A stretch of 5,647 nt of DNA from an uncultured Anaerolineaceae bacterium (GTDB taxonomy: Bacteria; Chloroflexota; Anaerolineae; Anaerolineales; Anaerolineaceae). This document shows, in pieces, positions 1,306 through 4,031 of the stretch. The stretch is taken from positions 1 to 5,647 of the forward strand of contig CALAEB010000348.1 of assembly GCA_937890875.1 (NCBI GenBank), given 5' to 3'. Within the stretch, counting starts at the first letter, position 1; each line of letters starts with the position of its first letter. Made by a program: the position numbers and the translations under genes. Below the pieces are notes generated by a model, which searched no databases, was not told the DNA's origin, and saw only the letters and a program-made list of their open reading frames with translations.

Positions 1306-2286
1306 CTATTCCGTATAAATTTCAGTCGCCCTTTCCAGAACGTTTTCGGGAAATACGTATCCAATCGCATCCGCGACAGTTTGATTCAGCACCACATCCA
1401 CATCCGCCAGTGACTCCACCGGCATTGTCGCCGGTTCCGCTTCACCATTCAGCACTCGGGCCGCCATCGCGCCAGTCTGAACACCAAGTTTATAATAATC
1501 GATCCCGACCGTCGCCAAACCGCCGGCTTCAACCATCGCCGGTGCGCCGCAGAAGACCGGAATCTTCTTTTCCTCTGCCACTTTGGCCAGGTTCGGCATA
1601 GCGGAGGCAATCGTGTTGTCCGTCGGAACATAAATCATGTCGACTTTTCCGGAAAGCGAAGAGGCAATCTGTTCAATGTCATTGACCGATGTGATCGTGC
1701 CGGTCTCAATCGCCAGTCCGGCCTGCTCCGCCAGTGCGGAAATCTGTTCAGCCTGAATTTCTGAATTAACTTCGGAAGAAGTATAGATGATGCCCAGCGT
1801 CTTTGCCTCCGGGAAAAGTTCAATCATCAGCGCCAGCTGCTGCTCCATCGGAGCCGCGTCGTTCGTCCCGCTGACATTTGTGCCGGGGGTCTCGTTGCTC
1901 TCAACCAGTCTCGCGCCGACCAGATCGGTCACCGCGGTGACAATGATCGGAATCTCCGTTGTCGCGGAGGCAACGGCCTGCGCGGACGGCGTCGCAATCG
2001 CCAGAATCAGATCGACCTTGTTTTTAACAAAACGTTCGCTGATGGTCATCAGGTTTGCCTGGTCTCCCTGTGCGTTCTGGAAATCGACTTCGATATTGAC
2101 GTCTTCCGTATAGCCGGCTGCCGCCAGCCCATCGATGAAACCGGCATAGGCTGCGTCAAGCGACGAGTGTTCAACCAATTGCAGCGCTCCGATTTTAATC
2201 AGATCATCTTCCGCAGAGACAATGCCGGCATGAATAGCGAAGGTCATAACGACCAGACATAAAAATAAGACGGTTGTTTTTTTCAT
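1306..2286 (-). CDS. TrpX-type ABC transporter substrate-binding protein (predicted Phe-regulated)
   Basis: Exported binding protein of 326 residues of the ABC_sub_bind family (PF04392, formerly DUF534; TrpX is a member). Such proteins deliver an amino acid to an ABC importer. Residues 1-25 form a signal peptide (MKK, hydrophobic stretch, VSA before EDD); there is no lipobox cysteine, so signal peptidase I cleavage is expected. Family-like stretches are IGALQLVEHSSLDAAYAGF, the FQNAQGDQANL block, ILAIATPSAQAVA, IPIIVTAVTDLVGARLV, the GTNVSGT turn, YVPTDNTIASAMP and GGLATVGIDYYKLG. ATG start with AGGAG 7 bases upstream (2294-2298). About three quarters of residues match the paralogue at 2875-3855, with no gaps. 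No permease or ATPase gene follows; the gene ends against rnz and is probably monocistronic. The leader encodes a Phe-rich peptide, so phenylalanine is the best ligand guess. That is inference; another aromatic amino acid is possible. Confidence 0.9.
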   Translation of the reverse strand: MKKTTVLFLCLVVMTFAIHAGIVSAEDDLIKIGALQLVEHSSLDAAYAGFIDGLAAAGYTEDVNIEVDFQNAQGDQANLMTISERFVKNKVDLILAIATPSAQAVASATTEIPIIVTAVTDLVGARLVESNETPGTNVSGTNDAAPMEQQLALMIELFPEAKTLGIIYTSSEVNSEIQAEQISALAEQAGLAIETGTITSVNDIEQIASSLSGKVDMIYVPTDNTIASAMPNLAKVAEEKKIPVFCGAPAMVEAGGLATVGIDYYKLGVQTGAMAARVLNGEAEPATMPVESLADVDVVLNQTVADAIGYVFPENVLERATEIYTE

Positions 2287-2309
2287 TAAACAGCTCCTGT
2301 TGAAAGAAT

Positions 2310-2341
2310 AAAAAAACCTCCTGTCGGTGCAGGAGGTTTTT
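2310..2341 (-). terminator. Attenuator terminator upstream of first binding-protein gene
   Basis: A perfect 12-base stem: AAAAACCTCCTG (2312-2323) and CAGGAGGTTTTT (2330-2341), loop TCGGTG on the + strand. On the transcribed (-) strand the stem is followed by seven Ts. It sits between the leader peptide gene and the start codon (23 bases from it), downstream of any plausible promoter, so it can act only as a conditional terminator for this gene. The AGGAGG within it is too far from the ATG to be its ribosome binding site. Confidence 0.9.
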
Positions 2342-2365
2342 GTTTACCAAAAATGAACGCTAAAC

Positions 2366-2434
2366 TTACACTGCACCCGGAGTGTTTTCCGCAAAAAAGC
2401 TAAAAAAGAAGAAAGCGCGTGTAAGTTTATTCAT
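2366..2434 (-). CDS. Phe-rich attenuator leader peptide
   Basis: A 22-codon ORF, ATG at 2434 and TAA at 2366-2368, starting MNKLTRA and then reading FFFFSFF at codons 8-14 (six Phe in seven codons), ending AENTPGAV. Phe clusters of this kind are the hallmark of regulatory leader peptides such as that of enterobacterial pheA. The peptide itself is not expected to have a function; its translation is the sensor. Five codons separate the last Phe from the GGT GCA G antiterminator segment, about what is needed for a stalled ribosome to leave that segment exposed. A paralogous leader with Tyr instead of Phe sits at the same place before the second binding-protein gene. No good Shine-Dalgarno sequence lies before the ATG, and the predicted promoter leaves only a few untranslated bases. 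Confidence 0.87.
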   Translation of the reverse strand: MNKLTRAFFFFSFFAENTPGAV

Positions 2435-2444
2435 GATAGCTGAT

Positions 2445-2472
2445 ACTATATCATAACCTCAAAAAAAAACAA
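2445..2472 (-). promoter_or_regulatory. Probable promoter of Phe attenuator transcript
   Basis: On the - strand TTGTTT (2467-2472) and TATAGT (2445-2450) are 16 bases apart. The overlapping 9-mer TATGATATA (2447-2455) is shared exactly with the region before the Tyr leader (4023-4031), at almost the same distance from the leader ATG (12 and 11 bases). That supports a promoter here, but which hexamer is the true -10 is open. Transcription would begin within about ten bases of the leader start codon. Confidence 0.45.
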
Positions 2473-2514
2473 GCCCGAATTATTTCGATTGATGACACGG
2501 AAATTTCAAACAGG

Positions 2515-2566
2515 ATTCGACTTTTGACCCGCAAACCATATCTGGTTCGGGTATCAAAAGTCGAAT
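2515..2566. repeat. Nested palindrome of the CTTTTGA family
   Basis: ATTCGACTTTTGA (2515-2527) and TCAAAAGTCGAAT (2554-2566) are a perfect 13-base inverted repeat. Pairing continues with CCCG/CGGG past a TA bulge, and the interior AACCATATCTGGTT is itself palindromic. It has the same plan as the units at 2590-2629 and 2726-2773: arms containing CTTTTGA/TCAAAAG around a core with ATATG/CATAT. It is in the spacer between the two binding-protein genes. No T-run follows, so it is not an evident terminator. Confidence 0.75.
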
Positions 2567-2603
2567 AGATCAAGATCGGTCGTTCAAACCTTTTGACATC
2601 CGG

Positions 2604-2633
2604 ATCATATTTGGTTAAAGTGCCAAAAGTCAA
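2604..2633 (-). promoter_or_regulatory. Possible outward promoter within repeat element copy 2
   Basis: On the - strand TTGACT (2628-2633) and TATGAT (2604-2609) are 18 bases apart, a good sigma70-type match. It points toward the Phe leader 170 bases away and is the exact counterpart of TTGCCT-N18-TATGAT in copy 1. Transcripts from here would pass through the palindrome at 2515-2566 before reaching the leader. Confidence 0.35.
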
Positions 2634-2736
2634 ATTGTTGCAGCAGAAACTGCTGTTCTGTTTTTTATTGGGCTTCGCCCAATAAAAAACAGAACAGCAA
2701 ATAACTCCTTTTTGGAAATTTTACCCTTTTGACGCC
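2604..2736 (-). repeat. Palindromic repeat element, copy 2 (inverted)
   Basis: Reverse-complement copy of the element at 21-157. The central hairpin here is a perfect 23-base stem, 2651-2673 with 2677-2699, closed by GGGC-TTC-GCCC. Against copy 1 the arms change T to C and A to G on one side and make the matching change on the other. The 39-base conserved flank is 2698-2736. Next to the stem is a smaller hairpin, CAGCAG-AAA-CTGCTG (2641-2655). An outer pair joins TGCCAAAAG (2621-2629) with CTTTTGACGC (2726-2735), imperfectly. The smaller palindrome 2590-2629 overlaps one end (CTTTTG...CAAAAG). The long stem could also stop transcription of the second binding-protein gene arriving from the right, although there is no classical T-run. 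Confidence 0.75.
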
Positions 2737-2773
2737 CTGATGCTCGAATCAGATATGCGCTGTGCGTCAAAAG
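2726..2773. repeat. CTTTTGACGC palindrome
   Basis: CTTTTGACGC (2726-2735) and GCGTCAAAAG (2764-2773) are a perfect 10-base inverted repeat with a 28-base spacer containing TCAGATATG. Its left arm is also the end of repeat element copy 2, so the element and this palindrome share an arm. At the window's left edge, GCGTCAAAAG (22-31) preceded by ATATGACTC looks like the right half of the same unit. Confidence 0.7.
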
Positions 2774-2786
2774 AATTGAACGCCCG

Positions 2787-2849
2787 GGAAACGGCAGGCT
2801 TGTGATTCTGTTTTTTGTGCCTCCCGCAAAAAACAGAATCACTGTTTCC
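2787..2849. repeat. Hairpin 3' of second binding-protein gene, related to the element core
   Basis: GTGATTCTGTTTTTTG (2802-2817) pairs perfectly with 2827-2842 (16 bases) around the loop TGCCTCCCG. GGAAAC (2787-2792) and GTTTCC (2844-2849) add a weaker outer pair. The arm resembles the central arms of the two repeat elements (TTCTGTTTTTT), and TTTCCGC after it also follows the stem in copy 1. It lies 26 bases beyond the stop of the gene at 2875-3855, so it would be the first 3' hairpin of that mRNA and may protect or end it. Confidence 0.7.
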
Positions 2850-2874
2850 GCACAAAGCCGCCCTTCGTTTCAGG

Positions 2875-3855
2875 CTATTCCGTATAAACAGTTGCCGCTG
2901 ATTCCAGAACACTTTCGGGGAACTCGACCCCGATTGCATCCGCGGCAACCTGGTTCAAAACAATATCAACGTCTTCGAGCGATTCGACCGGCATTGTGGC
3001 CGGTTCCGCCTCGCCGTTCAGCACACGGGCGGCCATTGCGCCGGTCTGCAGACCAAGTTTGTAATAATCAATCCCGACTGTCGCCAATCCTCCGCCGGCA
3101 ACCATGCTCGGCTCACCGCAGATGACCGGGATCTTCTTTTCTTCCGCAACTTTGGCCAGGTTCGGCATAGCGGAAGCGATCGTGTTGTCTGTCGGAGCGT
3201 AGATTACATCCACCTTCGAAGCTAACGAGGAGGCAACCTGCTCGATATCATTGACCGAGGTAATTGTTCCCCTTTCAACTTCAAGACCCAACGCTGTTGC
3301 CTGTTCTTCGACCTGCGCAGCTTGAATTTCGGAATTCACCTCAGACGAGTTATAAATAATTCCGAGCGTCTTCGCCTCCGGGAAAAGTTCGATCAGCAGG
3401 GCCAATTGCCGGTCAATCGGAGCAGCGTCAGTCGTCCCGGAAACATTCGTCCCCGGCAGTTCGTTGCTCTCAATCAACCTGGCGCCGACCAGATCAGTGA
3501 CCGCAGTGACGATGATCGGAATTTCAGAAGTCGCCGATGCAACCGCCTGGGCAGCCGGCGTCGCGATGGCCAGGATCAAATCGACCTTATTCTTTACAAA
3601 CCGGTCGCTGATGGTCATCAGGTTCGCCTGATCCGCCTGTGCGTTCTGGAAGTCAATCTGAATATTCACCCCATCCTCATACCCTGCTTCTTTCAATCCA
3701 TCGACAAAACCGGCATACGCGGCATCCAGAGCCGAATGTTCGACCAGTTGGAGCACACCAATCTGAAGAAGACTGTCATCAGCAAAGACAGCACCGAACT
3801 GCATGGCAGAAGCCAAAACGACAATTAACAAAATAAGAACGGTTGATTTTTTCAT
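2875..3855 (-). CDS. TrpX-type ABC transporter substrate-binding protein (predicted Tyr-regulated)
   Basis: Exported amino-acid-type binding protein, 326 residues, ABC_sub_bind family (PF04392). It is the same length as the paralogue at 1306-2286 and collinear with it. Signal peptide 1-25 with FADDS after the hydrophobic stretch; no lipobox cysteine. The two mature proteins share long identical blocks (for example FVKNKVDLILAIATP and SAMPNLAKVAEEKKIPV). They differ at scattered sites such as ICGEPSMVAGGG versus FCGAPAMVEAGG and YAPTD versus YVPTD, which could include ligand contacts. ATG start with AAGGAG 7 bases upstream (3863-3868). The preceding leader peptide is Tyr-rich, so tyrosine (or aromatic amino acids generally) is the likely ligand by inference. 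No permease or ATPase gene adjoins; a hairpin at 2802-2842 follows. Probably arose by duplication of the leader plus gene unit. Confidence 0.9.
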   Translation of the reverse strand: MKKSTVLILLIVVLASAMQFGAVFADDSLLQIGVLQLVEHSALDAAYAGFVDGLKEAGYEDGVNIQIDFQNAQADQANLMTISDRFVKNKVDLILAIATPAAQAVASATSEIPIIVTAVTDLVGARLIESNELPGTNVSGTTDAAPIDRQLALLIELFPEAKTLGIIYNSSEVNSEIQAAQVEEQATALGLEVERGTITSVNDIEQVASSLASKVDVIYAPTDNTIASAMPNLAKVAEEKKIPVICGEPSMVAGGGLATVGIDYYKLGLQTGAMAARVLNGEAEPATMPVESLEDVDIVLNQVAADAIGVEFPESVLESAATVYTE

Positions 3856-3879: not shown

Positions 3880-3909
3880 AAAAAAACCTCCTGTCTGTGC
3901 AGGAGGTTT
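3880..3909 (-). terminator. Attenuator terminator upstream of second binding-protein gene
   Basis: AAACCTCCTG (3884-3893) pairs perfectly with CAGGAGGTTT (3900-3909), loop TCTGTG on the + strand. Seven Ts follow on the - strand. It has the same stem as the terminator at 2310-2341 but a different loop, and it lies 24 bases upstream of the ATG, between leader ORF and structural gene. Confidence 0.9.
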
Positions 3910-3939
3910 CTGTTTAACCAGAAATTTGAAACGAGAAAA

Positions 3940-4011
3940 TCACTCTGCACACGGAGCGTTCTTAGGATAGGTATAATAATAAAAATCAAACGACCAGATG
4001 ATTTCCCTCAT
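3940..4011 (-). CDS. Tyr-rich attenuator leader peptide
   Basis: A 23-codon ORF, ATG at 4011 and TGA at 3940-3942. It starts MREII, then W6, F8, F10 and YYYTY at codons 11-15, and ends PKNAPCAE. Four of five consecutive codons are TAT. Five codons separate the last Tyr from the TGT GCA G antiterminator segment, exactly as in the Phe leader. Codons 19-22 (GCTCCGTGTGCA) align with the ACTCCGGGTGCA of the Phe leader, while the sensing stretch is unrelated in sequence. The cluster W-F-F-Y-Y-Y-Y might respond to all three aromatic amino acids, with Tyr dominant because its codons are nearest the switch. Only a weak GGA lies upstream of the ATG. Confidence 0.85.
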   Translation of the reverse strand: MREIIWSFDFYYYTYPKNAPCAE

Positions 4012-4022
4012 GGTTTTCCAAA

Positions 4023-4031
4023 TATATCATA
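4023..4031 (-). promoter_or_regulatory. Probable -10 region of Tyr attenuator transcript
   Basis: TATGATATA on the - strand, identical to the 9-mer before the Phe leader and 11 bases from the leader ATG. I see no convincing -35 at the right distance (TTTATG and CCGATT are poor), so the assignment depends on conservation between the two leaders. Confidence 0.35.

Follow-up and report, generated by a model that had tools for sequence, protein, structure and literature searches.

The locus

The 5,647 nt of DNA analysed here, called the window, make up contig C348 of a draft genome with 80.75% completeness (handle G000), from a genus that likely belongs to the Anaerolineaceae, Chloroflexota. Its minus strand carries two paralogous binding-protein genes, at 2875–3855 and 1306–2286, whose products are both 326 amino acids long and 78% identical. 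Each gene is preceded by a short leader ORF and an intrinsic terminator, the second leader–gene unit lying about 440 nt past the end of the first gene on the same strand. Paired genes of this kind pose a question about duplication: do sensor and ligand pocket specialise together?

The leader ORF of the first gene, MREIIWSFDFYYYTYPKNAPCAE (3940–4011, minus strand), was read directly and has 23 codons, ATG to TGA, without a Shine-Dalgarno site. A sequence-only reading of this DNA had described Trp6, Phe8 and Phe10 followed by Tyr-Tyr-Tyr-Thr-Tyr at codons 11–15, and this is exactly what stands on the minus strand from 4011 to 3940. The Tyr run (3967–3981) is the putative sensor, and such a run is present in 5/5 Tyr-type leaders. 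A candidate −10 box, TATATT (4021–4026), lies 9 nt 5′ of the leader ATG with a weak −35 box, and a leaderless start is predicted. Folding and comparison of arms gave an antiterminator whose 5′ arm UGUGCAG (region 2, 3945–3951) adjoins the leader stop codon and whose 3′ arm CUGCACA (region 3, 3896–3902) overlaps the stem and loop of the terminator. The latter (3880–3909), identified from sequence and folding, has the stem AAACCTCCTG / CAGGAGGTTT with 10 pairs, a loop of 6 nt and a 7-U tract. The gene itself (2875–3855), a TrpX-like member of PF04392 with a Glu248 pocket, is predicted to be Tyr-type and has its own AAGGAG ribosome site.

The second gene (1306–2286), with an Ala248 pocket, is predicted to be Phe-type. 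Its leader ORF, MNKLTRAFFFFSFFAENTPGAV (2366–2434), was also read directly, and is associated with region 2 GGUGCAG (2371–2377), region 3 CUGCACC (2326–2332), both by folding and comparison of arms, and a terminator with a 12-pair stem and U tract (2310–2341; scan and folding). The terminator segments of the Tyr and Phe attenuators are 89% identical across 46 nt.

In the relatives read by eye the gene order is a large permease, which we take to be KimA-like, two TrkA-like genes, one or two binding proteins and RNase Z. Neither in the window nor in the relatives read did inspection by eye reveal an ABC permease or ATPase beside the binding proteins. A 76 nt inverted repeat (89%; 21–96 and 2661–2736) bounds, on both sides, the segment that holds RNase Z and the Phe-type gene; it has a perfect inner hairpin (2651–2699), and a further palindrome lies nearby (2515–2566), which suggests that repeat and palindrome are a small repeated element.

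A simple promoter/terminator scan of the window lists the Phe terminator but not the Tyr terminator, and the TATATT box, like any other promoter for the Tyr leader, is absent from it; the totals are at chance (seven terminator-like elements against 7.5 expected, six promoter-like against 5.9). The fold of the whole leader was outstanding for the Phe copy (z −5.66) and not for the Tyr copy (z −1.43). The Rfam matches in the window (microRNA families, STnc370 and RF01859) were low-scoring and were set aside as far under their gathering scores; the best for Phe_leader, RF01859, reached 28.3 bits against 55 (plus strand, 2261–2346). Chance was assessed with dinucleotide shuffles of the two intergenic stretches (20,000 each), in which ATG ORFs of 14–35 codons were sought. 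A 4-of-5 run of Phe or Tyr appeared in 145/20,000 shuffles for the Tyr gene and 248/20,000 for the Phe gene, and a 4-of-5 run of any amino acid in 613/20,000 and 426/20,000 respectively. Conservation is a stronger test of the leader than shuffling.

Leaders in related genomes

Homologues at E values up to 0.001 were found in 14 of the 147 genomes of the window's family, all 14 belonging to the window's genus, and at E up to 1e-60 in eight of 301 genomes drawn from the order, in that genus only. Of the genomes named below, G037 is likely Flexilinea flocculi TC1, a named strain, while G049 appears to be an uncultured Anaerolineaceae bacterium and G039 ‘Leptolinea sp.’ UBA1437.

Nine genomes hold 16 close binding-protein genes (63–100% identity), and 14 of the 16 have a leader. 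All 14 leaders, which thus come from nine of the 14 genus genomes, carry a Phe run, a Tyr run or both. The Tyr-type runs are YYYTY (G000), YYYY (G049), YYFYGYYY (G039 and G044) and YGYYYY (G040); the Phe-type runs are FFFFSFF (G000 and G049), FFFFFFF (G039 and G044), FFFFFF (G040), FDFFFGFF (G041) and HFFFFFGF (G038). Dual leaders, with FFFFGYYFY in G037 and YFFFGYYFY in G045, stand before a gene that is present once in each of these genomes. For the second copies, in G041 and G038, neither inspection by eye nor the filter revealed a leader. Drift of the Tyr codons to other amino acids under retained hairpins, the outcome named beforehand as speaking against a Tyr-codon attenuator, was not what the relatives displayed: the nearest orthologue has YYYY, and the second lineage YYFYGYYY or YGYYYY.

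The remaining five genus members have only a 41–43% relative of the binding protein, and in four of the five the filter gave no leader-like ORF or one overlapping the gene's ribosome site. In G047 (L014) a short ORF, MHFHNFEDYLYFYRITSIISTK, containing YLYFY, lies about 147 nt 5′ of the 41% relative and is followed by a hairpin; it is possibly a more distant member of the same switch.

More widely, the best 80 of 528 matches in a scan of named genomes comprised five genus members and 75 more distant homologues. A loose pattern gave a short aromatic-rich ORF upstream of 14 of these 75, at scattered distances (e.g. YYYY at −257 in L082), and a strict T-box-core pattern gave none upstream of the 75, which is weak evidence. 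Among 31 pattern matches in viral contigs there was no relative. A covariance model, R1, was built from 13 leaders and searched in the 147 family genomes: 14 matches at E up to 2.3e-7 were the known leaders, and one further true find was the argG leader of G038 (E 2.5e-5). Thirteen other matches, read by eye, look like ordinary terminators behind genes and were discarded.

Antiterminator, folding and leader start

A GUGCAG × CUGCAC core is found in the same register in 11 of the 13 distinct leader regions, the arms of the G044 Phe leader being those of the G039 Phe leader. Pairs flanking the core co-change in some leaders (pair 7 is U-A, G-C or U-G; pair 8, U-A or C-G; pair 9, G-C or C-G), and in two leaders the arms are shifted yet complementary (CGGUGUG × CACACCG in the Tyr leader of G039; GUUUGC × GCAAAC in the Phe leader of G041). 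When an arm was slid by 1–3 nt, at most four contiguous pairs were left. The covariation is modest, since crossing the arms of different leaders costs little (a mean of 6.7 contiguous pairs, against 7.2 for a leader's own arms).

Folding was modelled on truncated transcripts, with the RNA extending to the start of the terminator 3′ arm and a ribosome footprint of 30 nt. For most ribosome positions within the run, the helix between regions 2 and 3 (2:3) formed in 14/14 leaders, with 5.1–9.5 expected pairs. Once the ribosome was moved to the stop codon, none of the 14 kept more than 0.7 expected 2:3 pairs, a loss that is partly built into the model because the footprint then masks region 2. By a broader measure, in which region 3 may pair with anything upstream, 0.2–5.2 pairs were kept at the stop through other partners. 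The 2:3 helix was lost a few codons past the run in most leaders, and already at Tyr13 in the window Tyr leader and at Phe13 in the Phe leaders of G000 and G049. In the window Tyr leader, Tyr13 (2.0 pairs) and Tyr15 (1.3 pairs) are past the switch point, so that the effective stalls would be at Tyr11–12 and at Phe8/Phe10. The leader trpL of E. coli, the positive control, behaved alike, giving 3.1 pairs at Trp10, 5.8 at Trp11, 0.7 at the stop and 0.6 with no ribosome by the broader measure.

An intrinsic terminator between leader ORF and gene was found in 14/14 cases by folding and alignment. When the complete transcript was folded at equilibrium, the terminator formed in every state, stalled or not, for all 14 leaders and likewise for trpL. 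The switch must therefore be kinetic. With no ribosome, the antiterminator already formed in 10/14 leaders (4.0–9.1 expected pairs) and a classical protecting hairpin is therefore not claimed for all of them; a 1:2 hairpin that would protect stands out in the Phe leaders of the window and of G049, and is weak or absent in 10/14.

A Shine-Dalgarno-like site is absent at all 14 leader starts and present at 13 of 14 binding-protein genes. The best −10-like box ends 6–12 nt 5′ of the leader ATG, accompanied by weak −35 boxes, so leaderless translation of the leader ORF is probable. The strict pattern TTGACA-N16–18-TATAAT-N5–8-ATG was counted 46 times across the 14 genus genomes, its reversed form not once. 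Some of these matches precede long ORFs, and the perfect TTGACA/TATAAT boxes 5–8 nt before the ATG of long ORFs at L192, L194, L199, L205 and L208 suggest that leaderless genes are common in the genus.

Binding proteins and their pockets

Both proteins are members of PF04392 (ABC_sub_bind), with 301.8 and 300.8 bits against a gathering score of 25.9. The TrpX equivalog NF041285 was not reached (366.8 and 363.5 bits; cut-off 390). A predicted structure (pLDDT 90) had CD0873 as its best structural match, with 48% identity. CD0873 is a Tyr binder in which, as its structural description reports, Glu-263 hydrogen-bonds the tyrosine hydroxyl; the residue there is Ala in VC_1101 (Phe) and SP1069 (Trp), and Tyr-279/Tyr-262 versus Gln-284 is described as excluding or admitting Trp in this group of binding proteins (PMC6816091). 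Glu-263 and Tyr-279 map to residues 248 and 264 of the window Tyr-type protein. The product of 2875–3855 thus has Glu248 and Tyr264, which makes it a predicted Tyr binder of the CD0873 type, and the product of 1306–2286 has Ala248 and Tyr264, which makes it a predicted Phe binder of the VC_1101 type. Compared with the TrpX, CD0873 and VC_1101 proteins (NF041285; PDB 3lft, 6hni, 3lkv), the window proteins share fold and pocket; they differ from the Trp binder in having Tyr264 where it has Gln, and from TrpX in standing under a probable attenuator, not a T-box, and in scoring below the NF041285 cut-off.

Site 264 is Tyr in all 15 aligned close copies. Site 248 is Ala in 7/7 proteins behind Phe leaders and Glu in 4/4 readable proteins behind Tyr leaders, 2/2 behind dual leaders and 2/2 copies without a leader. 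The fifth Tyr-leader protein, that of G044, is truncated where its contig stops; at a second contig end, which resembles its other part, the residue is Glu. On these sequences the leader codon type is in agreement with pocket residue 248, the ligands being predictions. This correspondence, and the dual leaders of the two single-copy relatives, had been absent from the sequence-only reading. Among the 75 distant homologues (from the best 80 of 528 matches) site 248 is Glu in 74, Asp in one and Ala in none. The rule is not exclusive: Ala248 is also found in two distant G049 proteins (L024 and L029) that stand behind a T-box-like leader. A leader codon run gives a testable forecast, from sequence only, of the ligand of a transporter, and here that forecast can be compared with a known pocket residue.

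A pair of ABC permease and ATPase genes with no adjacent binding protein was found in six genomes read (L240 at 1713–3460, L241, L242, L243, L244 and L246), and in G037, where it lies on contig 3 at about 130.2–132.0 kb, this pair is the sole strong relative of the permease of trpX-type operons. The orphan pair is likely the partner of the lone binding proteins.

Proposed mechanism and alternatives

The ORF, the codon runs, the hairpins, the complementary arms, their conservation and the pocket residues make it highly likely that the segment is a ribosome-mediated transcription attenuator of the Tyr-type gene; from them we infer leader translation, stalling, read-through, the ligand, the permease partner and the leaderless start. 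When Tyr-tRNA is scarce, a ribosome would stall on the Tyr codons of the short, probably leaderless, leader ORF, leaving GUGCAG by the ORF stop to pair with CUGCAC in the 5′ arm of the terminator; with this antiterminator formed, transcription would continue into the gene for the likely tyrosine-binding protein. Ample Tyr-tRNA would instead let the ribosome run on to the stop, where it would hide GUGCAG and leave the terminator free to form. An equivalent arrangement, built on Phe codons and coupled to a Phe-type pocket, is predicted for the adjacent paralogue, and the two binding proteins, with no ABC permease adjoining, likely share one encoded elsewhere. An attenuator is well supported by comparison among relatives, and the proposal that the Tyr-codon attenuator is separate from the Phe one and shares its terminator and antiterminator geometry is supported by the relatives' leaders, by the arms and by folding.

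Three other explanations were weighed. The hairpins might be plain intergenic terminators and the short ORFs accidental, with no amino-acid sensing: a trkA-like gene upstream of the Tyr leader on the same strand could need a terminator, the overall fold of the Tyr leader is unremarkable, and terminators alone gave many weak covariance-model matches in the family. This is nevertheless very improbable, given that Phe or Tyr runs stand in the same place in 14/14 leaders, that the arms are complementary in all 13 distinct leaders, that the position of the run fits the switch point and that the codon type fits the pocket. In addition, the hairpin lies about 24 nt from the gene in both copies and there is therefore no room for a promoter behind the terminator. 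A T-box, or another riboswitch that binds a tRNA or ligand, in place of ribosome stalling could be imagined from the T-box that precedes the related trpX-type operon in this genus and from the T-box control reported for trpXYZ of S. suis (PMC9382623). We find it scarcely credible for a leader RNA of only about 130 nt in which what is conserved is a run of codons read in frame from an ATG; moreover, T-box RF00230 gave no match in the window at E up to 1, and in none of the 10 leader-bearing loci that were searched did it reach the gathering threshold.

It had also been suggested that Trp6, Phe8/Phe10 and the Tyr run together form a graded sensor of all three aromatic amino acids. The folding model is compatible with this for the window, where stalls at Trp6 (7.1 pairs), Phe8 (7.0) and Phe10 (6.2) favour the antiterminator, and dual Phe and Tyr leaders do exist in two relatives. 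The composition of the other Tyr leaders argues the other way: Trp6 is present in 1/5, while in two others a Trp occurs at codon 23, beyond the switch point; Phe8 together with Phe10 occurs in the window only, two others having Phe10 inside the Tyr run. The nearest orthologue reads KKIICVNSYYYY. Furthermore, in three genomes read, a trpX-type operon elsewhere that includes its own permease is preceded by a T-box-like leader (L039, L041 and L042; one over the Rfam threshold, two by eye), in which the specifier, by eye, is UGG. A graded sensor of the three is very unlikely and was rejected on conservation; since the model lets stalls at Trp6, Phe8 and Phe10 relieve termination, some cross-sensing of Phe and Trp is possible in the window strain alone.

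Relation to known attenuators

With the trp, pheA, pheST and his attenuators of E. coli the proposed device shares a short leader ORF with a cognate codon run and an antiterminator set against an intrinsic terminator. It differs from them in its Chloroflexota host, in serving lone binding proteins and not enzymes, in having a Tyr-dedicated copy, in a leader that is probably leaderless and in the tandem arrangement of two codon types. Mycobacterial leaderless polycysteine leader peptides are cysteine-specific and occur in Actinobacteria; both systems would use a leaderless short ORF as an amino-acid sensor, here for Phe, Tyr and Arg and with intrinsic terminators. The mixed leader aroR of the C. 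glutamicum aroF operon (Phe-Tyr-Phe) resembles the dual leaders of G037 and G045, and a review describes AroR as responding when Phe is limiting, but not to how much Tyr is available (PMC11802643). The separate Tyr leaders described here, in contrast, have 4–7 Tyr codons.

A 2010 survey places leader-peptide systems in Proteobacteria and Actinobacteria, and adds His genes of bacilli (PMC2965389). The His leaders of hisZ and hisS are similar to the present ones in lying outside those two phyla and in placing a codon sensor before duplicated paralogues; in bacilli they are for His only, and the part of the survey drawn on here contains no codon-type split between paralogues. RNA-level control by tyrosine was assigned to T-boxes in a 2005 study (PMC1262725). 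Among the matches listed in the open-access literature, neither a Tyr-dedicated attenuator nor a leader-peptide attenuator in Chloroflexota was found. Branched-chain leaders in Listeria and Staphylococcus were reportedly added later, to judge by titles.

Origin of the Tyr and Phe copies

In a protein tree the Tyr and Phe copies of G000 and G049 cluster together (82/74), separate from those of G039, G040, G044, G041 and G038 (96/100), and the single gene with a dual leader is the first branch (91/93 for the rest). The AU test rejects one clade of the Phe-type copies of G000, G049, G039, G040 and G044 (p 3.3e-4), and one clade of the four Tyr-type copies (p 1.3e-5). When the two halves of the protein were taken apart the rejection held, more weakly (p 0.030 and 0.035 for Phe; 4e-5 and 0.028 for Tyr), and the place of the dual-leader gene differed between the halves. 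Because both single clades are rejected, the Tyr/Phe split probably arose at least two times. The order of the copies is also opposite, Tyr first in G000 and G049 and Phe first in G039, G040 and G044. On the best tree site 248 changed four times, in every case together with a Phe leader; only two of these changes fall on well supported branches. A test of site–leader pairs, with two supported pairs (four on the best tree), has no power, and its count is a restatement, as the states were entered from the row labels, which agree with the aligned sequences in every row.

Read most simply, these trees reflect two independent duplications, after each of which leader and pocket split in parallel; gene conversion between the tandem copies is the alternative. 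The fuller account would be that an ancestor with one dual Phe and Tyr attenuator, as in Flexilinea flocculi, was duplicated independently at least twice, that each time the Tyr codons and Glu were kept in one copy and the Phe codons and Ala taken by the other, and that the result is the first Tyr-dedicated leader-peptide attenuator. We judge that this account could as easily prove wrong as right. If true, it would be a replicated natural example of a regulatory codon run co-evolving with the ligand pocket of a transporter, set in a genus-wide style of leaderless attenuation (Phe, Tyr, Arg). One of the dual leaders is in a named strain, the likely Flexilinea flocculi TC1.

Other leaders in the genus

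The gene argG was above the cut-off in 12/14 genus genomes. Thirteen Arg leaders were read, 12 of them upstream of argG (including a second copy in G041) and one at the end of a G000 contig that breaks off short of the gene. CGA-CGA Arg codons are present in 13/13 (L156, L170–L175, L177–L182, L248), with TATAAT ahead of the ATG by 7 nt in 12 of them and by 6 nt in the other; no Shine-Dalgarno site was found in the 12 scored. A hairpin and U tract follow the leader ORF, as a perfect 12-pair stem by script in 4/11 and as imperfect stems, by eye, in the others. The argG leader is likely an arginine attenuator, its ORF probably leaderless.

No T-box-like leader was seen before the trpX-type operon of G040, and no Phe leader was found by the filter before prephenate dehydratase at the 20 loci read (of 22 matches in the 14 genomes). 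In this genus T-boxes seem to be assigned to Trp, and Phe, Tyr and Arg seem to be sensed through leader peptides. TIGR00564 found trpE in 0/14 genus genomes, while prephenate dehydratase was found in 14/14; Trp auxotrophy in the genus is possible on this gene content. In G049, argG is in two pieces (L183 and L181, on contig G049:C287), the first with internal stops, consistent with either a frame break or an assembly error.
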